Shown here: positions 493 to 33,790 of the stretch, one piece after another
How the letters are laid out: every line of letters begins with the position of its first letter
How positions within the stretch are numbered: position 1 is the stretch's first letter
Virus record (IMG/VR): IMGVR_UViG_3300043331_002379
Location: 1-35,516 of that record
DNA: 35,516 nt
Source of the DNA: a virus
Reading direction: 5' to 3' (one strand)
Notes under the pieces: model-generated
The model's input: only the letters and a program-made list of their open reading frames with translations
Databases searched by the model: none
Told to the model about the DNA's origin: nothing
Made by a program: the position numbers and the translations under genes

Positions 493-1815
493 TTACGCAG
501 ACTCCGCACATGAGGACAGGAGAACGGGCGTCTGGCCCGTCAGATCGACCCAGCGTTGCAGGGCGACGGCGACAAATTCGGGCGACAGGTCGAGGGCATA
601 GACCCGGCGTCCGAGCTGCTCGCCGGTGATCAGTTGACTGCCCGAGCCGCAGAAGGGTTCGTAGCACACCTCGCCCGGCAAGGTATGCTGGCGCATCGGC
701 GTTTCCCACAGTTCGATCGGCTTCGGGGTGGGATGCAGGCGCGCCTGCGGCGAGAGATCCTGGCCATAGTGCCACACCGTGTTGGGGTAATCCTCGCCGC
801 GGCGGGGCGGCGGGTGCCCCTGCTGCCAGCCGAAGAGGCACGGTTCGTGCGCGTTCATGTAGTAGGAGTGCCCAATCACCGGACGGGTCTTGCTCCAGAT
901 GATCTGCTGGTGGAAGAGGATGCCGGCCGCCTTCCAGGCCGCGGCCAGGATGTGTTGCTGGCGCGACGCGTGCCAGCAGTACCAGGCAGCGTTGGGGGCC
1001 ACGGCCTCCTGCAGCGCGACGGTGACGAAGGCCTGATACAGCGGCGCCACATCGGTCTGGTCCCAGTCGGTGTATTTGGTGCTCCAGTCCTTGTTTTTCT
1101 TGCGCCTCATCTCTTCCGATTCCTTGCTCCCGACCGGATGGTCCATGCCGGTATAGCCCACGCCGTAAGGCGGATCGGTGGCGAACAGGATGGCGCGGGC
1201 ACCATCCATGAGGCGCTGCACGGTGGCGCCATCGGTGGCATCGCCACACAGCAGGCGATGGCTGCCGAGCTGCCAGAGCTGGCCCCACGCCACGCCATAG
1301 TGGGCGCGCAGGGCCTCCCCCGCATCGAGCCGCGGCTCCACATCGCGCAGCTCCCCGCGGGGCATGGCCGCTTGCGTCTCTTGCCGCAAGCTGTCGAGCA
1401 GGGCCTGCACCGCACTGTGCTGGCTGTGAATCTGCGCCAGCAGGCTGTCCTGCACCTCGGCAGCGCGTTCGGCCAGGGCCGCCAGCGGATCGAGGGTGGC
1501 GAGAATCAGGCGCTCTTCGTCCACGGTCAGATCGAGATAGGTCACGGGGATGGCGGGCTGATGGGTTTCGATGGCCAGGGCGACCCGCAGATGGCCGTCA
1601 ACGAGATGGCCGGTGGTCTGGTTGACCAGCACGTCCTGCACCACGCCCACCTCCTCGAGCACCCCCTGCAGCGCGGCTTTTTGATAGTCGGGATGGCGCC
1701 GCCAGTTCTCGGGGTGGGGGAGCAGCGTGGTCGGATCGGCCACGTCCGAGCGCACGATGCGATTGCGCCAGGGCACGGCGGATGAAGCAGCACGCGGACG
1801 AGCACGCGAGGGCAT
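493..1815 (-). CDS. ParB-fused DNA methyltransferase (beta-class, N4-cytosine/N6-adenine)
   Basis: 440 residues. The N-terminal 110 or so resemble a ParB/Srx-type domain, with VDGHLRVALAI at 72-82. The methyltransferase follows with motifs in the permuted order of beta-class enzymes: catalytic DPPY at 214-217, then the AdoMet-binding FCGSGS at 388-393 followed by RRVYALDLSPEFVAVA. Family knowledge: such enzymes methylate the exocyclic amino group of A or C and, in phages, usually protect DNA from host restriction. It lies directly upstream of the terminase genes. No restriction partner is adjacent, so it is probably an orphan enzyme. The target sequence cannot be read from the gene. Confidence 0.88.
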   Translation of the reverse strand: MPSRARPRAASSAVPWRNRIVRSDVADPTTLLPHPENWRRHPDYQKAALQGVLEEVGVVQDVLVNQTTGHLVDGHLRVALAIETHQPAIPVTYLDLTVDEERLILATLDPLAALAERAAEVQDSLLAQIHSQHSAVQALLDSLRQETQAAMPRGELRDVEPRLDAGEALRAHYGVAWGQLWQLGSHRLLCGDATDGATVQRLMDGARAILFATDPPYGVGYTGMDHPVGSKESEEMRRKKNKDWSTKYTDWDQTDVAPLYQAFVTVALQEAVAPNAAWYCWHASRQQHILAAAWKAAGILFHQQIIWSKTRPVIGHSYYMNAHEPCLFGWQQGHPPPRRGEDYPNTVWHYGQDLSPQARLHPTPKPIELWETPMRQHTLPGEVCYEPFCGSGSQLITGEQLGRRVYALDLSPEFVAVALQRWVDLTGQTPVLLSSCAESA

Positions 1816-1975
1816 AGGCGATTTTCCTGGCAGTTTAGCGGTGAATTGCCGATAATCTCCTGATGGATTGATCCGTATGGGGCGTGGAGCCTTGCACGTC
1901 CCATACGGGAGGCTCTCTCCTCAACGGCCCCGAAGAGGAGCTGAAAAAGTATAACAGAATGAGAGGATTTTCCCT
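1816..1975. promoter_or_regulatory. Divergent intergenic region with a 14-bp stem-loop
   Basis: This 160-nt gap separates the minus-strand methyltransferase from the plus-strand early block. It holds a strong inverted repeat: CCGTATGGG (1873-1881) and CGTG (1883-1886) pair with CACG (1895-1898) and CCCATACGG (1900-1908), one G-T wobble between, loop GAGCCTTG. Downstream is TATAAC (1950-1955), a plausible plus-strand -10, but no good -35 stands 16-18 nt before it. It could be an operator shared by the divergent promoters or a leader hairpin. Confidence 0.45.
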
Positions 1976-2548
1976 ATGGAGTCCCCGATGTCCCCTGACG
2001 AGCTGGCCCAGAAAGTGTTTTCAGACCGCCGGCTCGAGGCGCTCTTGGATGACGACCTGCTCACCTTCTTGCAGCCCAAGCCGGGCAGCGCAGGCATGCC
2101 GCCGACCATGGTGGTGGCCACCCACACCGGCACGGGCCTGCGCTTGCTCTCCATCCTGATTGACGACCCGCGCTTTGACCAGTGGGAGATGCGCATGCAG
2201 ATCATGCGCGAAGTGGGCCAGCGGCTTGGGGCCCAGCAGCAGCGGGTGGTCGCGCTGGTGTTTGCCTCCGAGGCGTGGATGAAAACCTTGTCGGTGGCGG
2301 AGTGGCAGCAGGGCGACCGCCGGCCTGCCGGCGACTACCAGGATCGCGAGGAGGTGCTGGTGGTGCTGGCCCAAACCCTGGATGGGCGGTCGCGCAGCGC
2401 CATAGCCCGCATCGAACGCACGGCGCAGGGGGCCATCAAGCGGGTCGCCCCGTGGCAACGCACGCCCCCCAGCGACCAGACACGGTCAGCGCTCCTGCAG
2501 GCCGCCTGGCAGGGGTATGCCCGGGCCATGCTGCAGCCCCTGAATTGA
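1976..2548 (+). CDS. Conserved phage protein of unknown function
   Basis: 190 residues, first gene of the plus-strand early block. I do not recognise a named domain. The middle, VVALVFASEAWMKTL followed by DREEVLVVLAQTLDGRSRSAIARIER, recalls a family of uncharacterised phage and bacterial proteins with the pattern SEAW ... DRxE ... DGR, probably alpha/beta. There is no signal peptide, membrane segment or cysteine cluster. The start at 1976 has AGAGGA upstream; the in-frame ATG at 1988 is an alternative, with GGAG six bases before it. It is followed after 10 nt by the XRE regulator gene, so the two are probably co-transcribed. Confidence 0.75.
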   Translation: MESPMSPDELAQKVFSDRRLEALLDDDLLTFLQPKPGSAGMPPTMVVATHTGTGLRLLSILIDDPRFDQWEMRMQIMREVGQRLGAQQQRVVALVFASEAWMKTLSVAEWQQGDRRPAGDYQDREEVLVVLAQTLDGRSRSAIARIERTAQGAIKRVAPWQRTPPSDQTRSALLQAAWQGYARAMLQPLN

Positions 2549-2558
2549 GGAGGCACGG

Positions 2559-2987
2559 ATGGTCACGGCCACGAGCAAACGCCCCTATACCTTCCAACGC
2601 CGCCGCCGTCCCCAGGGGTTTCCGTGCGGCATCGCCAGCCATACGCATCTGACGCGGGGCGACCGCGAACGCTGCTCCCGCGAGCAGGAAGCCGCCGGGG
2701 TGCCCGAGGTGCCCAAGCGCCGTGGGCGCGAGCGCACCAGCGACACCCCGCTCCCGCCACGCAGTGCGGCGGTACGGCAGCTCCGGCTGCTGCATGGCCT
2801 GACGCAGCGCGAGCTGGCCAGCCTGCTGGGCATCAGCGTGCATACCCTGTCGGCTCTCGAGCGCGGGCGCTACGAGGCCACCGAGCCACTCCTACGGTTG
2901 GCGCGGGCCCTGATGGCACGCAGAGAGCACGAAAAGAGGCCAGAGCGAGTCGATTTTTATGGTATTTTATCGGAGAATGTACGATAA
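2559..2987 (+). CDS. XRE-family helix-turn-helix regulator
   Basis: 142 residues. The C-terminal half carries an HTH_3/XRE domain (about 71-118): VRQLRLLHGLTQRELASLLGI, then SVHTLSALERGRYEA with the recognition helix, then LLRLARAL. The N-terminal 65 residues are Arg- and Pro-rich and likely flexible. GAGGAGG stands 5 nt before the ATG. It sits in the early plus block rather than beside the CI-like gene at 6561-6788, so it may be a second regulator, for example of early or middle genes. A 13-bp palindrome immediately after the gene (2991-3003) is a candidate site for it; that link is inference. Confidence 0.8.
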   Translation: MVTATSKRPYTFQRRRRPQGFPCGIASHTHLTRGDRERCSREQEAAGVPEVPKRRGRERTSDTPLPPRSAAVRQLRLLHGLTQRELASLLGISVHTLSALERGRYEATEPLLRLARALMARREHEKRPERVDFYGILSENVR

Positions 2988-2990
2988 TCT

Positions 2991-3003
2991 ATGCGTATCG
3001 CAT
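2991..3003. promoter_or_regulatory. Perfect palindrome ATGCG-TAT-CGCAT
   Basis: A 13-bp inverted repeat just after the stop of the XRE gene and just 3' of GATAAT (2983-2988), a -10-like hexamer without a convincing -35. It could be an operator for the adjacent XRE protein controlling the gene at 3087. It is short enough to be chance. Confidence 0.3.
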
Positions 3004-3086
3004 GGTGCGGTACGGTTGGCCCGACCAGGGTTGCCGCCCTGGCCAGGCCGGTGTTCACGTCCCCCCTAGCATGTGAGGTTGCGAAC

Positions 3087-3806
3087 ATGGCAATGGTACC
3101 ACAGCCATCCGCGAATGGCACCCAGCCCATCACCCCTACCCAGGCCCTGTGGCGGGCGCTGCTGGTGCAGACCGCTTCCGACGCCTACCAGAAGCTCCCG
3201 GAGAATGCCTCACGCATCGATATGGCGGTCAGGCTCATCCTGGCCGACGCCGTGACGCTGGTCGACGCCCACACCGCCGAGGTCACGTCCCTGGACAGCG
3301 GCGCCGTCTACATGGTCGACAGCGCCTGTTCCTGCAAGGATTTCGCCGAGGCGGCGCCCCACAAGTTCTGCAAGCACCGACTGGCGCGGGCCTTATTCCT
3401 GCGTACCATGGAGGCGGCGAAAGCCTACCAGGTGCCGGCCCTTCCCGAGGTCCAGCCCGACGCGACGCCGACCGAGGTGCCGGCGCAGTACTTGATCCCC
3501 ATGCACGGCAAAACCTTTATTCTCTATAACGGCCTGCGCTACCTGGCCGAACAGCGCGGCCTGCGCGACATCCAGGTGACGCCGATCAGCGTGACCAGCG
3601 AGCTGGCGGTGTTCCAGGCCACGGCGCATTTTGACTGCGGGCGTACCTGGAGCGAGATCGGCGACGCCACGCCGAGCAACGTCGGCAAGAAGGTGGCGCA
3701 CGCCTTTATCCGCATGGCGGCGACGCGGGCCAAGGCGCGGTGCTTGCGGGAAGCGCTGCGCATCGATCTGGTCGCCTTTGAGGAACTGGAAGGCGACGCC
3801 GAATAA
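3087..3806 (+). CDS. SWIM zinc-finger protein with annealing-protein-like C-terminus
   Basis: 239 residues from the ATG at 3087, which has GAGG about nine bases upstream; the frame is open back to 2991, but those 32 residues lack character. A SWIM zinc finger is visible: C81-S-C83, then C95-K-H97, in the form CxC-x(11)-CxH. The C-terminal half (about 130-235) contains YLIPMHGKTFILYNGL and IGDATPSNVGKKVAHAFIRMAATRAKARCLREAL. I associate that arrangement with uncharacterised phage proteins that resemble Rad52/ERF-type single-strand annealing proteins; this is inference. A role in DNA metabolism is likely. A second, RecT-like annealing candidate lies at 12289. Confidence 0.7.
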   Translation: MAMVPQPSANGTQPITPTQALWRALLVQTASDAYQKLPENASRIDMAVRLILADAVTLVDAHTAEVTSLDSGAVYMVDSACSCKDFAEAAPHKFCKHRLARALFLRTMEAAKAYQVPALPEVQPDATPTEVPAQYLIPMHGKTFILYNGLRYLAEQRGLRDIQVTPISVTSELAVFQATAHFDCGRTWSEIGDATPSNVGKKVAHAFIRMAATRAKARCLREALRIDLVAFEELEGDAE

Positions 3807-3814
3807 CCACGCAC

Positions 3815-3840
3815 GGGGGCCTGCGCGCCCCCACAAGGAG
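3815..3840 (+). promoter_or_regulatory. GC hairpin plus Shine-Dalgarno cassette, copy 1
   Basis: GGGGGC (3815-3820) pairs with GCCCCC (3827-3832), loop CTGCGC. AC and AAGGAG (3835-3840) follow, then ATG at 3848. It begins 9 nt after the preceding stop codon and has no T-run. Near-identical cassettes stand before the genes at 5170 and 5796. Confidence 0.7.
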
Positions 3841-3847
3841 ATCCCCC

Positions 3848-4192
3848 ATGAGTGCCTACAGCCACGCCAAACGCACCCGCTTCCTGGCCCAGCTCACCCT
3901 GGCCGGGGTCGATTATGCCCTGCGGCAGCCCTGCGGAGAAATCCGCCTGCTGAAACCGACCGGCAGCGTGCAGGTACTCTGCCCCCTGACCGCCGTCGCC
4001 TGGCACAGCCTGAGCGACATCTATCCGCTCGAGTGCTACCGGCAAGCGGGCGAGGCCCTCGGGCTGCCCCGGGGGATGGTCGAGGCGATCCAGCGGGCGG
4101 CGGATTTTCCCCTCCAGTCCCGCGGTTCCTGGTGGCGCACGCAGCTCGAGCAGGCCCTGGGCATCGGAGGCGACGAATCTTCGTTGCATTAA
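3848..4192 (+). CDS. Small phage protein, unknown function
   Basis: 114 residues; no family recognised. It is mixed alpha/beta without membrane segments or metal-binding clusters. The beginning, KRTRFLAQLTLAGVDYALRQPCGEIRLLKP, looks like a compact globular fold, and the end is helical. AAGGAG lies 7 nt before the ATG and a GC hairpin immediately before that. A promoter begins inside its last codons (4184), so the next gene can be expressed separately. Confidence 0.7.
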   Translation: MSAYSHAKRTRFLAQLTLAGVDYALRQPCGEIRLLKPTGSVQVLCPLTAVAWHSLSDIYPLECYRQAGEALGLPRGMVEAIQRAADFPLQSRGSWWRTQLEQALGIGGDESSLH

Positions 4193-4212
4193 TACGGCGA
4201 ATTGCTTATATT
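4184..4212 (+). promoter_or_regulatory. Sigma-70-like promoter
   Basis: TTGCAT (4184-4189), 17-nt spacer, TATATT (4207-4212; 5 of 6 to consensus). It overlaps the end of the upstream gene and would drive the 4272 gene and those after it. The transcript would begin at about 4219, at the base of the hairpin at 4218-4238. Confidence 0.5.
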
Positions 4213-4217
4213 CTAGT

Positions 4218-4238
4218 CGTGGCGCGTGGGGCGCCACG
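4218..4238 (+). promoter_or_regulatory. GC hairpin, copy 2 (GTGGG loop)
   Basis: CGTGGCGC (4218-4225) pairs perfectly with GCGCCACG (4231-4238) around a GTGGG loop. The hairpin at 5137-5157 has the same loop but a different stem, so the loop may be what is recognised. It lies at the expected 5' end of the transcript from the promoter at 4184. Confidence 0.6.
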
Positions 4239-4251
4239 CGGTATAACCTCT

Positions 4252-4269
4252 TGAAGTTGGGAGACTTCA
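4252..4269 (+). promoter_or_regulatory. Hairpin with Shine-Dalgarno in its loop, copy 1
   Basis: TGAAGT and ACTTCA form a 6-bp stem around TGGGAG, which is the ribosome site for the ATG at 4272. The identical 18 nt recurs at 7600-7617 directly before the helicase gene, 3.3 kb away. Identity of stem and loop before two unrelated coding sequences suggests a shared RNA or DNA signal. Confidence 0.7.
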
Positions 4270-4271
4270 CC

Positions 4272-4463
4272 ATGACCGAGAAAATCGCGCAGTACCAGGT
4301 CCAGGGCCTGACGGCCCGGGGCTGGGTGACCGCGCTGACCACCACCGACCACGCCGAGGCGCTGGCCGAGATGAACCGCCTGCTCACCTATGGCGTGCAG
4401 GAACGCGCTGTCCGGCTGGTGCCGCTGTATGCCCACGACGGGCCAGAATGGAGGCAGCCATGA
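4272..4463 (+). CDS. Small phage protein, unknown function
   Basis: 63 residues beginning MTEKIAQYQVQGLT. The frame is open to 4251, but the ATG at 4272 is correctly spaced from GGGAG in the hairpin loop. The pattern (QYQVQGLTARGWVTALTT, then a helix, then VRLVPLY) suggests a small beta-alpha-beta fold; no family is recognised. Its TGA overlaps the ATG of the next gene (ATGA at 4460-4463), implying translational coupling. Confidence 0.65.
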   Translation: MTEKIAQYQVQGLTARGWVTALTTTDHAEALAEMNRLLTYGVQERAVRLVPLYAHDGPEWRQP

Positions 4464-4813
4464 TCACCCGCGACCAGGCCATAGTGGCCTTCCGTGCCAT
4501 GCGGGCCAATGCCAGGGCCCTGCGCGACGCGCAGGAGGCAGAAGACCGTGGCACCGGCTGCCTCGACCCCGCCATGATCGGGTTGCGCCTGGCGCAACAC
4601 ACCCTGCGCCCGGTGTTTGCCGCGCAGGGGCCGCTGACCAGCATGGCTATCTGGCGCACCCTGCAGCCGCTGATCGAACGCTATCGCGCCAGGAAAGCCC
4701 AGTGTCGCGCCGCCGACCAGACAGACGACGCCACGCTCTTCGGCGGCATCACGGTGGGCCTGATCTGGGCCAAGGCGATCCTGCAGGATCTCGCCGAAGG
4801 AGGCACCCTATGA
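4460..4813 (+). CDS. Small helical phage protein, unknown function
   Basis: 117 residues, mostly alpha-helical (AIVAFRAMRANARALRDAQEAED; MAIWRTLQPLIERYRARKA). No domain is recognised. GGAGG at 4449-4453 sets the start at 4460 rather than the in-frame ATG at 4448. It is joined to its neighbours by ATGA overlaps at both ends (4460-4463 and 4810-4813), so it belongs to a tightly coupled trio of small early proteins. Confidence 0.7.
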   Translation: MITRDQAIVAFRAMRANARALRDAQEAEDRGTGCLDPAMIGLRLAQHTLRPVFAAQGPLTSMAIWRTLQPLIERYRARKAQCRAADQTDDATLFGGITVGLIWAKAILQDLAEGGTL

Positions 4814-5127
4814 GCACCCGCGAGCATCTGCCCACTCTCCAGGACTTCCTGCCTCTGGGACCGACGCCGTCTGACGAAGCGTGCGCCCAGGTCGGCACCG
4901 CCGACTACCAGGCGCAGGCCATCCACGAGTGCCGCCGCTTCATCGCCTTGCTGCGGCACACCTTCGGGGGCGAACCCCAGGGCGCACGCCTGGCCGTCAA
5001 AGCCTTCGCGCACGACTTTGGGACGTACTACGAAGTGATCTGCCGCTTTGACCCCGATGACCAGGAGGCCGTCGACTATGCCTGGCAGTGCGAGGGCCAC
5101 GCGCCCGCGACCTGGCAGGGGTTTTAA
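4810..5127 (+). CDS. Small phage protein, unknown function
   Basis: 105 residues, last of the coupled trio. AGGAGG precedes the ATG. The core, VKAFAHDFGTYYEVICRFDPDDQEAVDYAWQCEG and then APATW, resembles uncharacterised early proteins I associate with many phages; no biochemical role is known to me. A single domain, no membrane segment. The stop is followed after 9 nt by the GC hairpin at 5137. Confidence 0.72.
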   Translation: MSTREHLPTLQDFLPLGPTPSDEACAQVGTADYQAQAIHECRRFIALLRHTFGGEPQGARLAVKAFAHDFGTYYEVICRFDPDDQEAVDYAWQCEGHAPATWQGF

Positions 5128-5136
5128 CCACCCAAC

Positions 5137-5166
5137 GCGGGGGCGTGGGGCCCCCGCACAGGAGAT
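5137..5166 (+). promoter_or_regulatory. GC hairpin plus Shine-Dalgarno cassette, copy 3
   Basis: GCGGGGGC (5137-5144) pairs with GCCCCCGC (5150-5157) around GTGGG; ACAGGAGAT follows and ATG is at 5170. The stem is identical to the copy at 5761-5780 and the loop to the one at 4226-4230. There is no T-run, so a simple intrinsic terminator is unlikely. Confidence 0.7.
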
Positions 5167-5169
5167 CCG

Positions 5170-5565
5170 ATGCTGAATGCCGCCCAGATCACCCAATACC
5201 TCAGTCCGCTGCTGCGGCAGCTCCAGCGGGCCCGCACCAAGACCGACCTGGCCAGCCCGGCCTATTACCGCCTCGACGCCCGCCTCGCCGGGGTGAACGA
5301 GGCGCACCTGCTGCTGGCCGACGTGGCCAACGCGCAGGCGCCCCTGCCGCCCGCCACGGTGGGCACCCTCAGTGCCCAGGACATCATCGATCTGCTCGAG
5401 GCGCTCATGAGCCGCGCAGGTGAACGCCACCAGCAGGCCAGCGACAGCCAGCGGACGTACCAGGCCAACGTACTCATCGGCCTCGGGTGGGCGTATCTCA
5501 CCGTGGTGCCCGCAGCCCAGGCTGCTGAGGCGCAGGCCCGCCAACAGGAGGTGATGCATGGCTGA
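5170..5565 (+). CDS. Small helical phage protein, unknown function
   Basis: 131 residues with long helices (ITQYLSPLLRQLQRARTKTDL; AQDIIDLLEALMSRAGERHQQASDS). Residues 96-115 (TYQANVLIGLGWAYLTVVPA) are hydrophobic and might be a weak membrane or buried helix. No family recognised. It overlaps the next gene by 8 nt. Expression is probably set by the hairpin-ribosome-site cassette upstream. Confidence 0.65.
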   Translation: MLNAAQITQYLSPLLRQLQRARTKTDLASPAYYRLDARLAGVNEAHLLLADVANAQAPLPPATVGTLSAQDIIDLLEALMSRAGERHQQASDSQRTYQANVLIGLGWAYLTVVPAAQAAEAQARQQEVMHG

Positions 5566-5752
5566 CGACCAGCGACCCGCTCTGGTACGCACGGACGACG
5601 CCGCGACCATCGCGGCCCAGGCCAGGGAACTGGCCGACATCGTGGCCACCCTGCATCGCACCAATATGCATCTGGCCGACCTGATGGAAGCCGTCCTGGC
5701 CCTCACCGATGAAGTGCGCGGGGTGAAGGTCACCCTGCGTTTAAACCGCTAA
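5558..5752 (+). CDS. Small coiled-coil phage protein, unknown function
   Basis: 64 residues. The middle (about 15-55, AATIAAQARELADIVATLHRTNMHLADLMEAVLAL) has heptad-like spacing and is probably a short coiled coil, so it may act as an oligomer. CAGGAGGTG precedes the ATG. It overlaps the upstream gene by 8 nt and is probably translated with it. No function can be assigned. Confidence 0.6.
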   Translation: MADDQRPALVRTDDAATIAAQARELADIVATLHRTNMHLADLMEAVLALTDEVRGVKVTLRLNR

Positions 5753-5760
5753 CTGTCAAC

Positions 5761-5789
5761 GCGGGGGCACCAGCCCCCGCCACAAGGAG
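5761..5789 (+). promoter_or_regulatory. GC hairpin plus Shine-Dalgarno cassette, copy 4
   Basis: GCGGGGGC (5761-5768) pairs with GCCCCCGC (5773-5780) around ACCA; CACAAGGAG follows (AAGGAG 5784-5789) and ATG is at 5796. The sequence CACAAGGAGAT is shared with copy 1 and nearly with copy 3. Confidence 0.7.
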
Positions 5790-5795
5790 ATGACG

Positions 5796-6206
5796 ATGGA
5801 GACCATACGGCGGATCATGACCGATCGCGTGCCCCTGCGCGATCCGAGCGACCTCAACGTACCGGTGGGCGAGCTGTTTGTGATGGCCAACCCGCTGGCA
5901 GCAGACGCCACGCGGGTGGCAGCCCCGGCCTTCGTGGTGGCCCCGCTGGACGGTCCCGACCAGACGCTGTGCGACGCCATCCAGCAGACGACCGGGCATT
6001 GGCCGCGCCTGCTGGGCTGGCACCCGCTGCGCGACCGCCGCCAGAGCTTTCTGACCTGGCACTGCGACGTCTGTTCCTGCGACGCGGATGGAGTGGAAGC
6101 CACGACCGCCCGGGCCGGGGCCTGGGTGTGCGACGCGTGCGCCGCGGGCTGGGACGAGATGCAACGCGACGAGGAGGCCGAGGAGGCCGAGAAAGGAACC
6201 TGCTGA
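5796..6206 (+). CDS. Zinc-ribbon-like phage protein, unknown function
   Basis: 136 residues. The start at 5796 is spaced 6 nt from AAGGAG, whereas the in-frame ATG at 5790 touches it. Near the C-terminus are paired cysteines (CDVCSC and, about 20 residues later, CDACAAGWDEM), consistent with a zinc ribbon. An acidic tail (EEAEEAEKG) follows. The first half has no recognisable motif. A regulatory or nucleic-acid-binding role is possible but unproven. Confidence 0.65.
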   Translation: METIRRIMTDRVPLRDPSDLNVPVGELFVMANPLAADATRVAAPAFVVAPLDGPDQTLCDAIQQTTGHWPRLLGWHPLRDRRQSFLTWHCDVCSCDADGVEATTARAGAWVCDACAAGWDEMQRDEEAEEAEKGTC

Positions 6207-6239
6207 TGTCTGGACAGCAAGACTGAGAGGAGCCTCCCC

Positions 6240-6461
6240 ATGATCCGATCCCGTGCCGACCGTTGCAGCGGCCCCCTCGAGATCGATCTCGCCGGCCCGC
6301 AGGGCAACGCCTTTGCGCTGTTGGGGCTGGCCACGAAGCTGGCCGCCCAGCTCGGCCTCGATGGCGAGGCGGTGCAGACCGAGCTGCAGGCGGGTGACTA
6401 CGAGCATCTGGTGGCCACTTTTGACCGCCACTTTGGGGCCTTCGTGGTGCTCTACCGCTAA
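6240..6461 (+). CDS. Conserved small phage protein (GPQGNAF family), unknown function
   Basis: 73 residues. The pattern LEIDLAGPQGNAFALLGLATKLAAQLGLDG, then GDYEHLVATFDRHFGAFVVLYR, matches a small protein I have seen in many unrelated phages, with no known activity. It fills the whole ORF, so it is complete. GAGAGGAG lies upstream of the ATG. It is the last gene of the early plus block and is followed directly by a terminator-like hairpin. Confidence 0.75.
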   Translation: MIRSRADRCSGPLEIDLAGPQGNAFALLGLATKLAAQLGLDGEAVQTELQAGDYEHLVATFDRHFGAFVVLYR

Positions 6462-6471
6462 AACCCCTCGG

Positions 6472-6489
6472 GGGCCACTCCGGTGGCCC
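6472..6489 (+). terminator. Terminator-like hairpin after the early block
   Basis: GGGCCAC (6472-6478), tetraloop TCCG, GTGGCCC (6483-6489), then TCGTTCT, ten bases after the stop at 6461. The T-run is poor. Its position between converging genes supports transcription termination. Confidence 0.5.
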
Positions 6490-6530
6490 TCGTTCTAGGC
6501 TTAGAGTGCCCTCGCCTAACCCTGCTATGA

Positions 6531-6565
6531 GGTCACATACTTCTGATAACATCAATTATGTCACC
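6531..6565. terminator. Nested inverted repeat at the 3' end of the repressor gene
   Basis: GGTCACATA (6531-6539) and TATGTCACC (6557-6565) are arms with one mismatch; inside them TGAT (6544-6547) and ATCA (6551-6554) form a second arm pair. The site overlaps the stop of the minus-strand repressor. It may be that gene's terminator or a protein-binding site. Confidence 0.3.
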
Positions 6566-6788
6566 CTGGCGGCTCGACAAACAGCCGCGCCACCGGCACC
6601 CCCAGCGCCCGCGCCAGCAGGTAGACCCGGCGCAGGCTCAGCGCGTAGCGCCCGTGCTCGATGCGACTGATGGTGGTCTGACTGCGGCCGATGGCCGCCC
6701 CCAGCGTCGTCTGTTTCATCCCCTGGGCGGTGCGTACCGCCTGAATGTTCCGTCCCACCACCTCCAGCAGGTGGGCATACGTGGCCAT
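6561..6788 (-). CDS. CI-like repressor, XRE helix-turn-helix
   Basis: 75 residues from the ATG at 6788; the frame opens further (to 6851), but only 6788 follows a ribosome site. An HTH_3 domain fills most of the protein: VGRNIQAVRTAQGMKQTTLGAAIGRSQTTISRIEHGRYALS, then LRRVYLLARALGV. There is no peptidase or dimerisation domain, so it is much shorter than lambda CI and more like a compact immunity repressor or Cro. It is transcribed opposite to the flanking early genes, as expected for an immunity gene. Its leader contains ten consecutive G next to the ribosome site and a 20-bp palindrome just upstream (6808-6827), consistent with autoregulation. Confidence 0.82.
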   Translation of the reverse strand: MATYAHLLEVVGRNIQAVRTAQGMKQTTLGAAIGRSQTTISRIEHGRYALSLRRVYLLARALGVPVARLFVEPPG

Positions 6789-6795
6789 ACCGTCT

Positions 6796-6805
6796 CCCCC
6801 CCCCC
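6796..6805 (-). repeat. G10 tract in the repressor ribosome site
   Basis: Ten consecutive C on the plus strand read as G10 on the mRNA, between GGAG and AGACGGT-ATG of the repressor gene. Runs of this length can change by slippage and would alter the spacing or structure of the ribosome site. Confidence 0.6.
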
Positions 6806-6807
6806 TC

Positions 6808-6827
6808 CTGGGCACAATTTTGCCCAG
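6808..6827. promoter_or_regulatory. Operator-like palindrome upstream of the repressor
   Basis: CTGGGCACAATTTTGCCCAG is a 20-bp palindrome with one mismatched pair, 19 bases upstream of the repressor start codon. The central CACAATTTTG recurs at 7492-7501 before the helicase. Size and place fit a site for a dimeric HTH repressor; binding is inference. Confidence 0.5.
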
Positions 6828-7153
6828 AGGCAGGGGAAAAACACCATGCACGTTTTATGCGTTTACTCGCGCATATTTACAGCCACACGGCAGCCAGAAG
6901 GCTGCGGCCTGGTGGGGTTCTAACGAGCCTTCTTAACACGATAAAGGCTCGGAAAGGCGTCACTTAACAGGATGGCATGTCTGTGAATTTCCGGTAAAGG
7001 TTGGGCATTGATTCAGCCCCTGTCCAGTGCTATGCTGTGAGGACGAAAATCGCATGCCCTCAGAGAGTCGTGATACTGATTTGAGCATGTGCCGTCTCTT
7101 CCGCTGCTGCTCTGCCTCACAGGCCATGCTCTTGCGATAGAGGAGTATGGCAG
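6828..7153. promoter_or_regulatory. Control region between repressor and plus-strand transcription unit
   Basis: About 325 nt with no convincing gene. It holds an 8-bp perfect inverted repeat, CGAGCCTT (6924-6931) and AAGGCTCG (6944-6951), around a 12-nt AT-rich loop. It also holds a plus-strand promoter, listed separately. The repressor promoter on the minus strand must lie here too, but I see only weak candidates, for example CATAAA in the 6855-6865 area. Confidence 0.5.
7008..7036 (+). promoter_or_regulatory. Plus-strand promoter candidate
   Basis: TTGATT (7008-7013), 17-nt spacer, TATGCT (7031-7036), each 4 of 6 to consensus. It would transcribe the small gene at 7154 and possibly the helicase operon. 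Confidence 0.4.
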
Positions 7154-7351
7154 ATGCCTGCCACCAAACACGCCCCGGAGCCCCCCCGCGAGGTGCGGGT
7201 GCGTCTCGCCCTGGACCCAGACGTCTGGGACCTGTTGCGGGCCGAGTGCCGCCAGTCGACCGATGGGCGCTACTATGGCCTGAAACAGACCATTGCGAAG
7301 TGTGTGTATGCGACGTTAGGACGGAAAAAGCGCCGCGAGTGCCCGCAGTAG
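7154..7351 (+). CDS. Small DNA-binding-like protein (possible ribbon-helix-helix)
   Basis: 65 residues, AGGAG 8 nt before the ATG. The pattern REVRVRLALDPDVWDLLRAECRQ resembles the strand-plus-helix opening of ribbon-helix-helix proteins, and the C-terminus is basic (GRKKRR). It faces the CI-like repressor across the control region, so a Cro- or antirepressor-like role is possible. That is inference from position and size. It is followed by a 12-bp perfect hairpin (7377-7407). Confidence 0.55.
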   Translation: MPATKHAPEPPREVRVRLALDPDVWDLLRAECRQSTDGRYYGLKQTIAKCVYATLGRKKRRECPQ

Positions 7352-7376
7352 AGCGAGGCGCTGGCAGGACAGGACG

Positions 7377-7407
7377 GGCCATTGGGTGCTCGTAACACCC
7401 AATGGCC
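7377..7407 (+). terminator. Perfect 12-bp hairpin after the small gene
   Basis: GGCCATTGGGTG (7377-7388) pairs with CACCCAATGGCC (7396-7407), loop CTCGTAA. It lies 25 nt after the stop at 7351. No T-run follows. A sister hairpin with the related core GGGTG-CT-...-CACCC stands at 7549-7574, so this may be a paired regulatory element rather than a plain terminator. Confidence 0.5.
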
Positions 7408-7502
7408 TGGGATGACGCACCGATCCGGCAAGGGATGTTAGTGTGTCTTTTTTTATTGTACCAGAAAACTCCGTTGGGCTGAAGTTGCGCCCACAATTTT
7501 GT

Positions 7503-7531
7503 TTGCGTTGCGGCCCCTGTCGAGCGACAAT
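7503..7531 (+). promoter_or_regulatory. Promoter candidate for the helicase operon
   Basis: TTGCGT (7503-7508), 17-nt spacer, GACAAT (7526-7531). It overlaps the repeated operator core CACAATTTTG at 7492-7501, so repressor binding could block it. Both hexamers are only partial matches. Confidence 0.35.
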
Positions 7532-7548
7532 AGGACAGCAAAAACAAT

Positions 7549-7617
7549 GGCCTGGGTGCTGGAACACCCAGGCCGCGTCGCCCCCCGCAGGGGGGGCTGT
7601 GAAGTTGGGAGACTTCA
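7549..7617 (+). promoter_or_regulatory. Structured leader of the helicase gene: three adjacent hairpins
   Basis: Hairpin 1: GGCCTGGGTG (7549-7558) with CACCCAGGCC (7565-7574), 10 bp. Hairpin 2: GCCCCCC (7580-7586) with GGGGGGC (7591-7597). Hairpin 3: TGAAGT (7600-7605) with ACTTCA (7612-7617), whose loop TGGGAG holds the ribosome site; identical to 4252-4269. The ATG follows directly at 7618. The leader is therefore almost entirely paired, suggesting translational or processing control. Confidence 0.65.
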
Positions 7618-9258
7618 ATGCACGATAGTAGCACATCTCCGTCCCTGTTGTCACCTGCACTGGGGGCGACCGCCTCCTGGGCCGGCAACGGCCATCTCAG
7701 TCTGCGTCCCTACCAATCCCAGGCCGTGGCCAGCGTGCTGGACGCCCGCGAGGCCGGGAACCATCCGGTCGTGGCCTTACCTACTGGCTCGGGGAAAAGT
7801 CTGGTCTGTGCCGCCCTGTGCGCCGAAATGCCGGGCCGGGTGCTGGTCGCCAGTCACCGCCAGGAGCTGCTCGAGCAGGACGCCGCGGCGCTGCAGCGCT
7901 ATGCCCCGGGGACGTCCCTGGGGATCTATAGTGCCGGGCTGAACCGCCGCGACACGCACCAGCGCGTGCTGTTCGCCGGGGTGCAATCGATCTATACCCG
8001 GATGGACGTGCTGCAGCAGGCCGGGCCGTTCGCGGCGATCATCGTCGATGAATGCCATCTGGTGGCCCCGAAGGACGCCGACACCATCATGTATCAGGCC
8101 GTGTTCGCAGCCTGCCCGACGGCCACGCGCATCGGCCTCTCGGCCACGCCCTACCGCCTCGATAGCGGGTCGCTCACGAGCGGCGAGCACGCCTGGTACG
8201 ATACCCTGGCGGCGCACGTCTCGATGCGCAGTCTCACCCCCGACTACCTCAGCCCGCTGCGCGGCATGCTCACCGCCACCAACATCGACGTCGAGGGGGT
8301 GCGCATCAAGGCCGGGGACTTCGTCCAGAGCGACCTGGCCCAGCGGGCCCTGCAGGAAGACGTGGTGCAGGGGGCGGTGCGCGAGATCTGCACCCTTGGC
8401 CGCCAGCGACGGGCCTGGTTGGTGTTTTGCGTCGACGTGGCGCACACCTGGGCCGTGGCCGACGCGCTCCGGGCGCGGGGGATCGCCACCGGGGTGGTGC
8501 TCGGCACGACGCCGCAGGACGACCGGCGGGCCACGCTCGAGGCGTTTAAGGCCGGGCAGCTCCAGGCCGTGGCCAACTGCGCCGTGCTCACCACCGGGTT
8601 CGACCACCCGGGGATCGACCTGGTGGCCATGCTCCGGCCCTCGATGTCGAAGGGGCTGATCGTCCAGATGATCGGACGAGGCGCCCGCCAGGCCCCGGCC
8701 AAGCAGGACTGCCTGGTGCTCGACTACGCCGGCAACATCCAGCGGCATGCGCCCCTGGACGAATTGTGGGACACCGCGAAAACCCCGCAGCGGGCCGCGA
8801 AGGACGAGCGCGAGGCCAGGGAGGCGCAGGAGCGGGCGCGGCGCGAGCAGCAGGCACGGCACCTGCAGCAGGCCAGTCTCCTCGACCCGTTGACCGGGGA
8901 GGGCCCTGACGATCACACCTACCCGGTGCTGGGAGCGAGCTACGAGGTCAGGGAAACCAAGAACCCCAGGTACAAAGGGCGCCAGATGCTCGTGGTGCGC
9001 TATACCTGCCCGGCCCGCCAGGAGCGCAACCCCGCCTACCCGCCCTACCTGTGGCAATGGATCTGCGTCGAGCACGACGGCTGGGCACGGCGCCAGGCCG
9101 AGCAGTGGTTTCATCGGCGCGGCCTGCTCGGGGTGCCACGGACGGCAGCCGAGGCCCGCACGCAGGCACCGCGCCTGCCCTTGCCGACGAGTCTGCGGGT
9201 CAAAGAGAAGGAGTTCCCCGAGGTGCTGCTGGAGTATTTTGAGGAGCGCGAAGGGTAG
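7618..9258 (+). CDS. SF2 DEAD/DEAH-type helicase
   Basis: 546 residues. Ordered superfamily-2 motifs are visible: RPYQSQAV (Q-like, about 30), Walker A ALPTGSGKS at 53-61, DECH at 144-147 (motif II), SATPYR at 175-180 (motif III), and QMIGRGAR near 350 (motif VI). A charged helix with many E/R/Q residues follows (about 395-420), then a C-terminal domain of unknown type. Family knowledge: such phage proteins unwind or remodel DNA during replication or recombination, and are often annotated as restriction-type (Res) helicases. It opens the replication block, 76 nt before the VapE gene. Its leader is unusually structured. Confidence 0.9.
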   Translation: MHDSSTSPSLLSPALGATASWAGNGHLSLRPYQSQAVASVLDAREAGNHPVVALPTGSGKSLVCAALCAEMPGRVLVASHRQELLEQDAAALQRYAPGTSLGIYSAGLNRRDTHQRVLFAGVQSIYTRMDVLQQAGPFAAIIVDECHLVAPKDADTIMYQAVFAACPTATRIGLSATPYRLDSGSLTSGEHAWYDTLAAHVSMRSLTPDYLSPLRGMLTATNIDVEGVRIKAGDFVQSDLAQRALQEDVVQGAVREICTLGRQRRAWLVFCVDVAHTWAVADALRARGIATGVVLGTTPQDDRRATLEAFKAGQLQAVANCAVLTTGFDHPGIDLVAMLRPSMSKGLIVQMIGRGARQAPAKQDCLVLDYAGNIQRHAPLDELWDTAKTPQRAAKDEREAREAQERARREQQARHLQQASLLDPLTGEGPDDHTYPVLGASYEVRETKNPRYKGRQMLVVRYTCPARQERNPAYPPYLWQWICVEHDGWARRQAEQWFHRRGLLGVPRTAAEARTQAPRLPLPTSLRVKEKEFPEVLLEYFEEREG

Positions 9259-9334
9259 GAACAGGAAAGCCCTGGCCAGCGTTTGGACCGCCGACCAGGG
9301 CACCACTCAACACGCATTACTGAGGAGTGAGTAT

Positions 9335-11389
9335 ATGCCAGAGGGATCTGAAACACAAGCCGAAATGTGGCAGCAGCACCCCTGGGTGCCGGTGCTGGTG
9401 GTCGCCACCGAGGCCGAGCGCGACGCGCTGCAGGCGCGGGATCTGCGCCGCGGGGACGGCGACCCGTTTGCCCTGGTGATCGTGCTGTGGGCCGAGCTGC
9501 CGATCCTGCTGCAGGCCGCCTGGACCGATCCGACGCTGCCCTGCCCCACGGAGCGGGTGCGGTGGTACGGACGCACCCTGTACATCGCAGGGTTCGACCC
9601 GAGTGAGATCCAGCGCACCGAACTGCTGGTCGACGCGCAGGCCCTGGGCGTGGACCTGCAGCAGTGTGCGACGCTGCCCGAGGGGGCCAGCGACGCCACC
9701 ATCGTGGCCTGGTTGCTCGACGCCCTCCCGCCGATCAGTCTGGAGGAGATGATCGCGCAGGCGCAGGCCGCCGTCACCCCCGAAGGCGAGGCCGCGCAGG
9801 TGCTCAGTGACCTGGCCACGGTGCCCGAGGGCGAGCGCCTCGCCACGCTGCTGTCCGAAGAGGTCTTGTGCCTGCTGGATGTGCTGCAACATACGCCGAC
9901 CTGGCCGCTGTGGACGCAGCAGGCGAAAGCGCTGTGCCCCACGCTCAATCTCAATGACCTGAAAAGCATCCTGGCCAAACGCCGTAAAGAGCGGGAGGCG
10001 GCGCTGAAGACCGCGCAGGCGACCGCCCAGGCGGCGACGAAGGCGGCGACGAATGGCCACGCAGCGCCGCCTCCCCCAGCGAATCCATGGGTGGCGACAC
10101 TGCGCCTTCAGACGACGCCATCTGAGGGGCTGCCCATAGGAACAGCCTATAATTTCAGACGCATTCTTGAGCAGCATCCCTACTGGAAAGAGCCCATGCA
10201 CCGCCTGTGGTTTGATAGCGTGCGCCATGTCCCGATGCAGGGCGATGCGACGCTGCAAGACGTCGACGTCTTTGAAGCGGCCGCGTGGATGGGCGAAGAG
10301 TTGGGGATGAAGCTCGCCACCACGGGCCTGCTCAAAGATGCCATGACCTACCGCTGCACCAAGCACCCCCGCGACCTCTTACGCGAGTGGCTGGAGAGTC
10401 TCCCGTCCTGGGATGGCGAGCCGCGCCTGCATGGCTGGTTGAAGATCGCCGCCAGCGTTCCAGGGACGCTCTACCACCAGGAGGTGTCGCGCCTGCTGGT
10501 CACGAGCCTGGTGGCCCGGGCGCTGACGCCGGGGTGCCAGTACCGCTACGTGGTGGTGCTCGAAGGCCAGCAAGAGATCGGCAAGTCGAAGCTCCTGCGC
10601 TATCTGGTCGGCGACGAGTGGCACACGGATCTCCACCAGGACTTTGATAATAAAGAAGTCTACATCAAGATGCGCCACGCCTGGCTGGCCGAGCTGGGGG
10701 AGCTCCGCAGTCTCACCCGCACCAACACGGATCGCTTCAAGCAGTTTGTCACCGAGGACACCAACAAGTTCACCCCGAAGTATGCCAACTTCGAGGAGCA
10801 CCATAAGCGCCGCACCATTCTGGTCGGCACGTCCAATCGTATCGGGCAGCCGTACTGGTCGGACGATACCGGGGCGACGCGGCTCTTGCCGGTGGTCTGT
10901 GGCAAGGTGGTGCCAGAGGCGGTACTGCAGATCCGCGACCAACTGTTTGCCGAGGCCATAGACGCCTATACCACGACGCGGAAACAGGACTGGTGGCGGA
11001 TCCATCCCGACGCGCTGGCCGAGCTCACCGCGGCCCGGGAATTGCGGACGGAGCGCAGCAGTATCCACGACGCCCTGGCGACCTGGCTCGATGCCATCAC
11101 GATAGACGCCGATGGCACACAGCGCTATTGCAACGTGAAGGTCTACGACACGCTCGAGGCTGCGGAGGTGGGGGTGCCAGCCGGCACCCGCAAGACCAGC
11201 GTCGAGACGATCCTGCGCATGTATACCGGCCTGGACGTCAAGGACTGGGCTGAGAAGAAACTCCCCCGCGAAATCCCCAAGGTGCTTCAGGCCCTGGGCT
11301 GGAGCAAGGCCGGAATACGCCGGCGCCACCCGGTGAGTGGTGAGCGGGAATACCCCTGGTACTTCTTCCCGACGCAGGAGGGGCGATGA
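9335..11389 (+). CDS. VapE-family (virulence-associated E) phage helicase/ATPase
   Basis: 684 residues from the ATG at 9335, chosen for GAGGAG seven bases upstream; the open frame reaches 9239 but that part overlaps the helicase gene. The C-terminal half matches the VapE/VirE pattern: LREWLESLPSWDGEPRL, Walker A EGQQEIGKSKLLRYL near 410-424, ELGELRSLTR, then EDTNKFTPKY and RRTILVGTSNR. Family knowledge: these are replicative ATPases of phages and satellite islands, and some carry a primase domain. Here the first 300 residues are Ala/Glu/Leu-rich with no primase motif I can see. It directly precedes the repeat cluster proposed as an origin. Confidence 0.85.
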   Translation: MPEGSETQAEMWQQHPWVPVLVVATEAERDALQARDLRRGDGDPFALVIVLWAELPILLQAAWTDPTLPCPTERVRWYGRTLYIAGFDPSEIQRTELLVDAQALGVDLQQCATLPEGASDATIVAWLLDALPPISLEEMIAQAQAAVTPEGEAAQVLSDLATVPEGERLATLLSEEVLCLLDVLQHTPTWPLWTQQAKALCPTLNLNDLKSILAKRRKEREAALKTAQATAQAATKAATNGHAAPPPPANPWVATLRLQTTPSEGLPIGTAYNFRRILEQHPYWKEPMHRLWFDSVRHVPMQGDATLQDVDVFEAAAWMGEELGMKLATTGLLKDAMTYRCTKHPRDLLREWLESLPSWDGEPRLHGWLKIAASVPGTLYHQEVSRLLVTSLVARALTPGCQYRYVVVLEGQQEIGKSKLLRYLVGDEWHTDLHQDFDNKEVYIKMRHAWLAELGELRSLTRTNTDRFKQFVTEDTNKFTPKYANFEEHHKRRTILVGTSNRIGQPYWSDDTGATRLLPVVCGKVVPEAVLQIRDQLFAEAIDAYTTTRKQDWWRIHPDALAELTAARELRTERSSIHDALATWLDAITIDADGTQRYCNVKVYDTLEAAEVGVPAGTRKTSVETILRMYTGLDVKDWAEKKLPREIPKVLQALGWSKAGIRRRHPVSGEREYPWYFFPTQEGR

Positions 11390-11390
11390 G

Positions 11391-11677
11391 CTGTCCCATC
11401 ACCGTCCCATGAAAAGCCGGATGGGACAGCTCATCGCCTTACAGCCAGGCGGCTTGTCCCATCTGTCCTATTCTTTTCTCTTAAAGAGTAGTGGAGAGAA
11501 AAGAGGGGAGGAGGAGGGGGAGAGAAGGTATACAGGGTGTGGGGGCGGGAGGTATACGCATATATATAAGTACCCCTCGAAAATGACGGGACAGATGGGA
11601 CAGAGGCTTCTCGCCTTACAGCCAGGCGGCGAAACGCTGTCCCATGTGATGGGACAGCTTCTGACGTGATGGGACAG
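11391..11677. other. Candidate replication origin: repeated ATGGGACAG/CTGTCCCAT sites, purine tract, AT-rich patch
   Basis: About 340 nt without a gene (11390-11731). The 9-mer ATGGGACAG or its complement occurs at 11391-11399, 11421-11429, 11595-11603, 11637-11645, 11649-11657 and 11669-11677, with near matches at 11403-11410, 11455-11462 and 11586-11594. Sites 11637-11645 and 11649-11657 form a perfect inverted repeat. CGCCTTACAGCCAGGCGGC is present twice (11435-11453, 11612-11630). Between them are a 36-nt purine run (11493-11528), a 9-bp hairpin (11472-11480 with 11496-11504) and an AT-rich alternating patch (11552-11573). Iterons next to a helicase gene plus an unwinding-type element suggest an origin. 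Regulatory operators are the alternative. Confidence 0.55.
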
Positions 11678-11731
11678 AAGGCTGGTTTTTCCATAGAAGG
11701 TGTCAGATTTCAATACCTTAGGAGGAAGTTA

Positions 11732-12085
11732 ATGCGAATCTATAATGTCTGGAATCCATCGCCCGCCCAGCTTCGTGAGTTGTACAAAGGGCGTCTGCGT
11801 ATCTGGTGCAGTATTGCTCGGTGGCGCCAGTGGCCTGGCGGGCAGTGGGGCTGGCTCTGGGTCAAGGACGCCCTCTACCCCGAAACCGCTGTGCATTATC
11901 TGGTGGCCTTACCGCGTCAGATGCTGTCGATCTATCAGGTGGCCTTTCATGATCCATTCACCCATGCCGTGCGCCGCATGAGCGGGGAGGAGTTTCTGGG
12001 CGAGTATCTCACCTGGCCGGTGAATAAGGGCCACCTGGCCCAACAGAGAGAGGAGATGGGACTCGATGCCGCCAAAGACCGTTAA
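11732..12085 (+). CDS. Small phage protein, unknown function
   Basis: 117 residues, rich in Trp and Tyr (MRIYNVWNPSPAQL; RWRQWPGGQWGWLWVKDALYP). AGGAGG stands six bases before the ATG at 11732, so the earlier in-frame codons back to 11666 (inside the repeat cluster) are not used. No domain recognised and no membrane segment. The 3' end overlaps the next gene by 20 nt and carries the first of three ACCGTTAAAT repeats. Confidence 0.65.
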   Translation: MRIYNVWNPSPAQLRELYKGRLRIWCSIARWRQWPGGQWGWLWVKDALYPETAVHYLVALPRQMLSIYQVAFHDPFTHAVRRMSGEEFLGEYLTWPVNKGHLAQQREEMGLDAAKDR

Positions 12086-12320
12086 ATCCCCCACGCGACC
12101 GTTAAATACCGTTAAATCTCGCACCCTGGCCCGCCGCCACACCGAAGAGGAACGCCGCCAGCACCGGCTGGCCTGCGAGGATGCGTATCGCTGGCCGTGC
12201 CCCCAGTGTCCCTGTCGCATGAACCTGCGGGCGCTGGGGCGTCCCGCCTGTCTCCACTGCACGCATGTGCATACGAAGGAGGTGTCCCATGAGCACCGCA
12301 CTGGTGCCCTACTCGACTGA
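12066..12320 (+). CDS. Zinc-ribbon-like small protein
   Basis: 84 residues. The N-terminal 35 residues are basic; then CPQC at 45-48 and CLHC at 62-65 form a four-cysteine zinc ribbon. Phage proteins of this kind often bind nucleic acid or act as co-regulators, but no specific role is known. The start overlaps the previous gene by 20 nt and the end overlaps the RecT-like gene by 32 nt. Three ACCGTTAAAT repeats lie inside its first codons and may force part of the N-terminal sequence. Confidence 0.55.
   Translation: MPPKTVKSPTRPLNTVKSRTLARRHTEEERRQHRLACEDAYRWPCPQCPCRMNLRALGRPACLHCTHVHTKEVSHEHRTGALLD
12078..12117 (+). repeat. Three direct repeats of ACCGTTAAAT
   Basis: Copies at 12078-12087, 12098-12107 and 12108-12117, that is, at 20- and 10-nt spacing (one or two helical turns). 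They span the overlap of two small genes. Such phasing is typical of cooperative protein binding. Confidence 0.6.
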
Positions 12321-13068
12321 GGTCGACAAAGAAGCCCTGAATCAGGCGATGATGACTGGCGACCTGGGCCAGCTCACCCCGGAAGCACGCCAGAACTATT
12401 ACCTGGCGCTGTGCCTGTCGAGCGGCCTGAATCCGCTCACCCGCCCGTTTATCGTCATTACCGCCGAGAGCGGCGAAAAGGTGTGGTACGCCACCAAGGA
12501 GTGCGCCGAGCAGCTCCGCAAGCTGCACCATGTCTCGATGCGCGTGCTCAGCCGCGAGCACACCGACGATGGGATGTACATCGTCACCGTCGAGGCCCGG
12601 TTGCCCTCGGGCCGCGTCGAGGAGGCGCAGGGCATCGTGCCGATGACCAAGCAGAAGGGCACCTGGGAAACCAGCCAGGCCGGGAAGCGCTACTTCAAAG
12701 AAGCCCGCTCGACCGATGGCACCCCGCTCACGCAACCGCTCTTTGGCAAGGAGCGGGCCGATGCCTACCACCGTGCCGAGAGCAAGGCGAAACGCCGCGC
12801 GACGTTGGCGTTATGCGGCCTGGGACTGCCGGAGGTAGACAACCCCCAGGTGGTGCGCTTCGATCCAAATACGGGCCTGCTAGAGGGCGAAGAAGCGAAA
12901 CCTGATCGGGTGGCGCGGGCGCTGGCCACGCATGCTGGAGAGGTGGTGGATACGGAGACCGGGGAGATCATCGAGCAGGCCATGGTGCCGGGAGCACTCG
13001 ACCCGCACGCGGCGATCGGCGAGCTGTTTGACCGGAGTGAGGGCAGACCGGAGGAGGCGAGTGCATGA
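12289..13068 (+). CDS. RecT-like single-strand annealing protein
   Basis: 259 residues from the ATG at 12289, with AAGGAGG seven bases upstream. The first third contains LTPEARQNYYLALCLSSGLNPLTRPF, then YATKECAEQLRKLHHVSM; later YHRAESKAKRRATLALCGLGLPEVD. This layout is that of phage proteins related to RecT/Bet recombinases, which coat single-stranded DNA and anneal complementary strands. The match is by motif memory, so it may be a divergent member. The C-terminus (from about 200) is acidic and probably flexible. It is followed, with a 4-nt overlap, by the MT-A70 methyltransferase; a VRR-NUC nuclease lies 2 kb downstream as a possible partner. Confidence 0.72.
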   Translation: MSTALVPYSTEVDKEALNQAMMTGDLGQLTPEARQNYYLALCLSSGLNPLTRPFIVITAESGEKVWYATKECAEQLRKLHHVSMRVLSREHTDDGMYIVTVEARLPSGRVEEAQGIVPMTKQKGTWETSQAGKRYFKEARSTDGTPLTQPLFGKERADAYHRAESKAKRRATLALCGLGLPEVDNPQVVRFDPNTGLLEGEEAKPDRVARALATHAGEVVDTETGEIIEQAMVPGALDPHAAIGELFDRSEGRPEEASA

Positions 13069-14111: not shown

Positions 14112-14634
14112 GGAAAGCCGGGCCTTTGCCCAGCAGTTTGATGAGTCCTTACAGGCCATTCTGGGCCTGGAGCTCTATCGCACCGCCAGCTTTCTGGAGG
14201 ATGTGCGGTATGGCATTGATGGCACAATCAAGATTCTCCGCGTGGCGGAACGCCTCCGCAGCCTCGCCGTCTATCCCCGCTACAAGTTTCAAATCACTCT
14301 GCGCTATAGCCGCCCGACTGGGACGGCAACCGAATATCGCAAGCTGCTGGAGGGCACCATGGCCGCGGACATCTATTTTTATGGCTGGGGCGATATCCAC
14401 AGTCGCGAGATTAAAGCCTATGTGATCCTCAGTGTCCCCGCCTTGCGCACCTGGCTGCGGACCGTCGGCGAGGAGAGCGGGATGATCTTTGTCAATCCCG
14501 ATGGGACGGCAGGGATTGCCTTTGATCTGCGCACGATGCCGCGCCCCGTGGTGTTGACCTGGAAACGCTTACCTGATGCCCGCCAACTCGACTTGTTTGT
14601 GCAACGGTTTACCCATGCTGTCATTGTCTCGTAA
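14098..14634 (+). CDS. Phage protein of unknown function, possibly PD-(D/E)XK nuclease-like
   Basis: 178 residues from the ATG at 14098, inside the last codons of the methyltransferase. The core FQITLRYSRPTGTATEYRKL, then MAADIYFYGWGD, then REIKAYVILSVPALR alternates acidic and polar positions in predicted strands, recalling phage proteins distantly related to PD-(D/E)XK nucleases. I cannot confirm a complete catalytic set. The position next to a methyltransferase would fit a nuclease or DNA-processing role, but this is weak inference. Confidence 0.6.
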   Translation: MHAYEESRAFAQQFDESLQAILGLELYRTASFLEDVRYGIDGTIKILRVAERLRSLAVYPRYKFQITLRYSRPTGTATEYRKLLEGTMAADIYFYGWGDIHSREIKAYVILSVPALRTWLRTVGEESGMIFVNPDGTAGIAFDLRTMPRPVVLTWKRLPDARQLDLFVQRFTHAVIVS

Positions 14635-14646
14635 AGGAGCCACCCC

Positions 14647-15379: not shown

Positions 15380-15470
15380 CCCGCCCCCACCCCGTAGCTC
15401 GTGGCTGCAGGGGTGTCCGTGCGCCCTGGAGTTCTGCATGACGTGCCCCAGGGTGCGGGGCGGGTGCGAG

Positions 15471-15491
15471 AAGGCCCGCCCCGCGGGCCTT
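15471..15491. terminator. Bidirectional terminator-like hairpin between converging operons
   Basis: AAGGCCCGC (15471-15479) pairs perfectly with GCGGGCCTT (15483-15491) around a CCC loop. It lies between the plus-strand nuclease stop (15379) and the minus-strand endolysin stop (15498). No long T-run. The rest of 15380-15470 shows nothing else. Confidence 0.6.
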
Positions 15492-15497
15492 GCCCCC

Positions 15498-16064: not shown

Positions 16065-16075
16065 CCCCACACTCC

Positions 16076-33787: not shown

Positions 33788-33790
33788 ACG

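Follow-up and report, generated by a model that had tools for sequence, protein, structure and literature searches.

How does a phage come to carry one and the same 18-nt palindrome directly before the start codons of two unrelated early genes, and does the element act there in the mRNA or in the DNA? The window analysed here is a whole virus record of 35,516 bases (66% GC), and its source is an unclassified, uncultured tailed dsDNA phage. The first 20 kb gave no megablast match among 50,697 phage records. The tail genes, among them tape measure, tail assembly and glycoside hydrolase, are oriented leftward; the early genes run rightward between 1976 and about 15379. The early proteins scanned include an SF2 helicase, a VapE-type primase/helicase, an HTH protein and many small proteins without a known function.

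The repeated palindrome and its placement

A scan of the whole record located TGAAGTTGGGAGACTTCA as an exact match at two positions, both on the plus strand. The features of the two sites are as follows.

4252..4269, plus strand: hairpin copy 1, TGAAGT-TGGGAG-ACTTCA, exact match; hairpin probability 0.43-0.97, varying with how much context is folded
4259..4263, plus strand: loop Shine-Dalgarno (SD) GGGAG of copy 1, with the ATG 8 nt downstream, from the sequence
4272..4463, plus strand: 63-codon early gene, first of an early unit, with a predicted beta-beta-alpha-beta fold
7600..7617, plus strand: hairpin copy 2, identical to copy 1 and ending at the ATG, exact match; hairpin probability 0.87-0.98
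7607..7611, plus strand: loop Shine-Dalgarno GGGAG of copy 2, with the ATG 6 nt downstream, from the sequence
7618..9258, plus strand: SF2 helicase gene (ResIII/Helicase_C; ResIII E=1.8e-23)

The original prediction, made from the letters alone, had placed an identical 18-nt element directly before the start codons of a gene for a 63-residue protein and of an SF2 helicase gene, unrelated to each other; both coordinates are exact, and both genes are as described. Copy 2 abuts the ATG at 7618, and copy 1 is separated from the ATG at 4272 by the dinucleotide CC, the gaps thus being 0 and 2 nt. The 18-mer is a perfect 6-6-6 palindrome with 6-bp arms and a 6-nt centre, and the identity of the copies stops exactly at its edges (flanking bases T and C at copy 1 versus G and A at copy 2), which is the pattern that selection on the hairpin would give. 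A motif search returned no third site within 3 mismatches anywhere in the window.

That an ordinary ribosome site has been repeated by chance appears extremely improbable. Any exact repeated 18-mer arises in 11 of 200 Markov-1 simulations of the same length and composition (about 5%), and the repeat by itself thus reaches only p~0.05, which is the point in favour of chance. Sites within 3 mismatches of this particular 18-mer had an expectation of 0 in 100 dinucleotide shuffles. Combined, its palindromy, its exact edges and its position at the ATGs of two genes give a very small probability and set the repeat far from chance. Among 1,856 SD-preceded ORFs, 8 start behind a hairpin with the SD in its loop (perfect stem of at least 6 bp, hairpin end 0-3 nt before an ORF of at least 50 codons), and two of the 8 are the copies of this phage. 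An identical SD-in-loop hairpin before two separate ORFs (stems of at least 5 bp, ORFs more than 60 nt apart) was seen at no other locus among 365 (3.5 Mb), a mixed sample, retrieved for other purposes, of bacterial stretches and phage fragments, many of them short, so that it sets only a rough bound on the frequency.

A cluster of small genes (4272-6461) begins behind copy 1, and behind copy 2 comes the helicase gene, followed by the primase. The 63-aa protein matches neither Pfam nor PHROG. Its fold model has a mean pLDDT of 82 in the best of five models, the others being much lower, and Foldseek found with it no significant PDB match and, as its only matches, uncharacterised phage proteins. 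Since the protein is slightly acidic (pI 6.0), it is not an obvious RNA binder. Three features lie in the leaders upstream of the two copies.

4172..4214, plus strand: third copy of the promoter-like repeat D6, 60% to the reference, with a -10-like end ~38 nt upstream of copy 1
4223..4240, plus strand: GC-rich hairpin, from folding, in the leader that precedes copy 1
7549..7597, plus strand: a pair of GC-rich hairpins (7549-7574, 7580-7597) immediately preceding copy 2

The promoter-like repeat at 4172-4214 possibly drives the 4272-6461 cluster; we regard it as weak, because it is absent from the listing of the promoter scan. The helicase leader holds two long hairpins (7377-7407 and 7549-7574) with a common GGGTG...CACCC and differing outer pairs, and both come after the gene of a small basic protein at 7154-7351.

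The copies stand in the same orientation and may be viewed as direct repeats that are either a remnant or a substrate of recombination, by which the 3,348-bp module between them was brought in or can be excised; excision would fuse the helicase gene to the 4172-4251 leader. We consider this recombination scenario very improbable: the genes of the module include no recognised recombinase, the module does not differ from its surroundings in base composition, and the placement at start codons with the SD in the loop is left unexplained.

Folding and translation initiation at the two starts

As the original prediction had it, GGGAG lies in the loop of a 6-bp stem. The free 18-mer folds into a stem of 7 pairs, the last of them U-G, with a GGGA loop (-5.8 kcal/mol, z -3.0), whereas short local folds with a few dozen flanking bases are no better than shuffles (z 0.12 and -0.22); the support for the hairpin is thus positional, not energetic. 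In longer leaders competing pairings are present at copy 1, whose hairpin probability falls to about 0.43 in some contexts. In both genes the predicted unpaired fraction of the AUG region (-4 to +12) is 0.29, the lowest of 20 early genes.

The loop GGGAG is the sole SD of each of the two genes, and the hairpin overlaps the SD of the gene behind it in both copies, as expected of a translational operator. The SD core is 4 nt (GGAG), weaker than the 5-7 nt AGGAG/GGAGG matches of most other early genes. Since the loop keeps TTGGGAG while most early genes use AGGAG or GGAGG, it is not simply an optimal SD. GGGAG also precedes two minus-strand starts (17507 and 33694) and is therefore not exclusive to the hairpin pair. 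An RNA thermometer is not favoured, as the SD is in the loop and not in the stem.

These data support a shared functional element that is under selection and acts at translation initiation. The original prediction had gone further, to an operator-like hairpin with a shared regulator. Its first part, a shared element at two translation starts, is well supported because of the placement, the exact edges, the uniqueness and the low accessibility; for the small RNA-binding protein that it proposed to look for among the unknown early genes no candidate emerged, as no RNA-binding family was recognised among the early proteins scanned. Our main reading, advanced tentatively and at somewhat less than an even chance, is that the element is an RNA translational operator for a trans-acting factor that co-regulates two early units. 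Few dsDNA phages are known to have a translational operator that serves more than one gene.

Such an operator would act in the mRNA as a 6-7 bp stem-loop presenting GGGAG in the loop. Its 3' arm lies between the SD and the AUG, so that the stem must open during normal initiation, and the free hairpin (-5.8 kcal/mol) should be weak enough for ribosomes to open it, leaving it open by default. A trans-acting ligand common to both copies, in the simplest case an RNA-binding protein of the phage or of its host, would then lock the hairpins and turn down the 4272 small-gene unit and the 7618 helicase-primase unit together. A conditional operator, open by default and locked by its ligand, calls for just such a weak hairpin with an unvarying sequence at both starts. 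Four elements of this scheme we infer: transcription through both hairpins, a trans-acting ligand, repression rather than activation, and joint control of the two units. If the scheme is true, one of the small early proteins without a known function would be an RNA-binding regulator that has escaped recognition, and the hairpin, compact at 18 nt and with a loop that carries the SD, would make a module easy to test and reuse.

A simpler possibility is a hairpin that works only in cis, a ribosome-site module used twice for fixed low expression or 5'-end protection with no trans-acting regulator. This we judge rather unlikely, even though no regulator was recognised and the phage does reuse another hairpin leader module three times, in the following intercistronic leaders.

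3807-3850, 5128-5172 and 5753-5796: GGGGGC-loop-GCCCCC hairpin followed by (A)CA(A)GGAGAT, ACAAGGAGAT or CAGGAGAT

Leaders of this type are common in IMG/VR phages (at least 119 stretches). The thrice-reused module, however, has its SD outside the hairpin, whereas the 18-nt element has it inside, and a structural role alone would not require the same 18 letters, loop included.

Candidate regulators and the palindrome as a DNA site

Three encoded proteins deserve attention as possible regulators.

2559-2987: very basic HTH_3 protein (pI 11.3) in which the arginine-rich stretch FQRRRRPQG precedes the HTH
6564-6788, minus strand: HTH_3 protein resembling the restriction-modification controller proteins C.BclI and C.AhdI
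7154-7351: possible ribbon-helix-helix protein, small and basic, from a low-confidence model

A perfect dyad of 18 bp is equally a DNA site, and with two HTH_3 proteins and a possible ribbon-helix-helix protein encoded, a dimeric repressor might bind the 6-bp arms across the 6-bp spacer downstream of two promoters and block transcription. We nevertheless regard a DNA operator as unlikely. Such an operator would be expected as a dyad at the promoter under control as well as at that of the repressor gene, and both copies lie in leaders at start codons; no further TGAAGT-N6-ACTTCA site was found at any promoter. For DNA binding there is no need to have the SD in the centre and a start codon at most 2 nt away, as both copies do. 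Moreover, each regulator has a better-placed palindrome of other sequence. TTAnCGG-N7-CCGATAA-like dyads occur at 1835 and 2967 within promoter-like repeats, and from its sequence the dyad inside the repeats at 1816-1858 and 2948-2990 is a candidate operator. A TGGGCA-N6-TGCCCA dyad, TGGGCACAATTTTGCCCA, precedes the minus-strand HTH gene at about 6807-6826, with CACAATTTTG found again near 7491, and GGGTG/CACCC palindromes lie at 7377-7407 and 7549-7574. These other palindromes at promoter positions are likelier DNA operators of the HTH proteins than the 18-nt element is. The promoter-like 43-nt repeats (1816-1858, 2948-2990 and 4172-4214) end in GATAATCT or TATATTCT.

A dual role would combine the two, with an HTH protein reading the dyad as duplex and, as an RNA hairpin, over the ribosome site. 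Birkholz et al. (cited in PMC12456014) reportedly described in 2024 such an HTH regulator, the phage anti-CRISPR regulator Aca2, which binds both DNA and RNA. The likeness lies in a palindrome readable as a DNA dyad or as an RNA hairpin at a ribosome site, and the sequence here is indeed both a perfect dyad and an SD-bearing hairpin; the pI and the arginine-rich stretch of the 2559-2987 protein also fit. In contrast to Aca2, no acr-aca operon was recognised here, and the likely own operators of the two HTH proteins have other sequences. An Aca2-like dual operator is thus distinctly unlikely in our estimate. Its specific version, in which the arginine-rich 2559-2987 protein would bind the element as DNA dyad and RNA hairpin and shut off the small-gene cluster together with the helicase-primase unit, we rate as improbable.

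Rfam covariance models gave no match near the gathering score in 1800-16100. A search of the window for antisense RNA to the hairpin loop gave none of at least 8 nt.

Known systems, relatives and other repeats

The 18-nt hairpin is probably a further case of an already known kind of control. In ssRNA phages (MS2 and relatives) the coat-protein operator is a hairpin of about 20 nt at the start of the replication gene, and the bound protein stops translation (PMC3561173). The size of the hairpin and its position at the start site of a replication gene make the likeness. The MS2-type hairpin surrounds the replicase initiation codon, whereas in this phage the SD is in the loop and the AUG is outside; there the phage is an ssRNA phage with the coat protein known as ligand, whereas here a tailed dsDNA phage has two genes sharing the hairpin, and the ligand is only inferred. 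Phage T4 likewise has one repressor, RegA, that controls a number of early genes at their starts (PMC3014915). Its sites lack structure and are rich in A+U, in contrast to the repeated hairpin of this phage.

CsrA/RsmA sites resemble the element in that a short hairpin at the SD presents GGA in its loop. Their consensus is RUACARGGAUGU, with ACA and GGA invariant (PMC4347634), and the ACA is missing from the 18-nt element (loop UGGGAG). The window gave no match to CsrA, and the element was rejected as a CsrA/RsmA target.

An exact scan of IMG/VR for the 18-mer gave no match. A relaxed scan for the hairpin with a start codon returned 50 stretches, mostly one recurrent sequence ending in GAAGTTAGGAGACTTCATGCCGTTGTAG; there a stop follows within 3 codons, so that the stretch looks like the end of a coding region and not a leader, and, having no context in common with this phage, it was rejected. 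In bacterial genomes, a 16-mer search gave 82 sites, 13 of them with a possible start within 5 nt, and these were taken as chance, with no visible pattern. Relatives sought by the helicase, the 2991 protein, the primase, the tail protein and the ParB-methyltransferase were none of them close enough, in search sets from which the records nearest the window may be absent; species genomes gave no match by the patterns used. Helicase relatives are 29-46% identical in the best segment, 46% being the maximum, and the start codons of the distant helicases are uncertain. Homologous leaders, in which the stems of the two hairpins could be compared for compensatory changes, were not found.

Two other repeat regions were observed in the window. 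At 11382-11680, just after the VapE-type primase gene, dense GATGGGACAG / CTGTCCCATC repeats occur in both orientations. They are accompanied by an inverted repeat with perfect 19-nt arms (11382-11400 / 11420-11438) and by a direct repeat of 25 nt whose copies are 92% identical; by its sequence this region looks like an iteron-type replication origin. An ATTCTCC tandem repeat lies at 33754-33788 between minus-strand genes.
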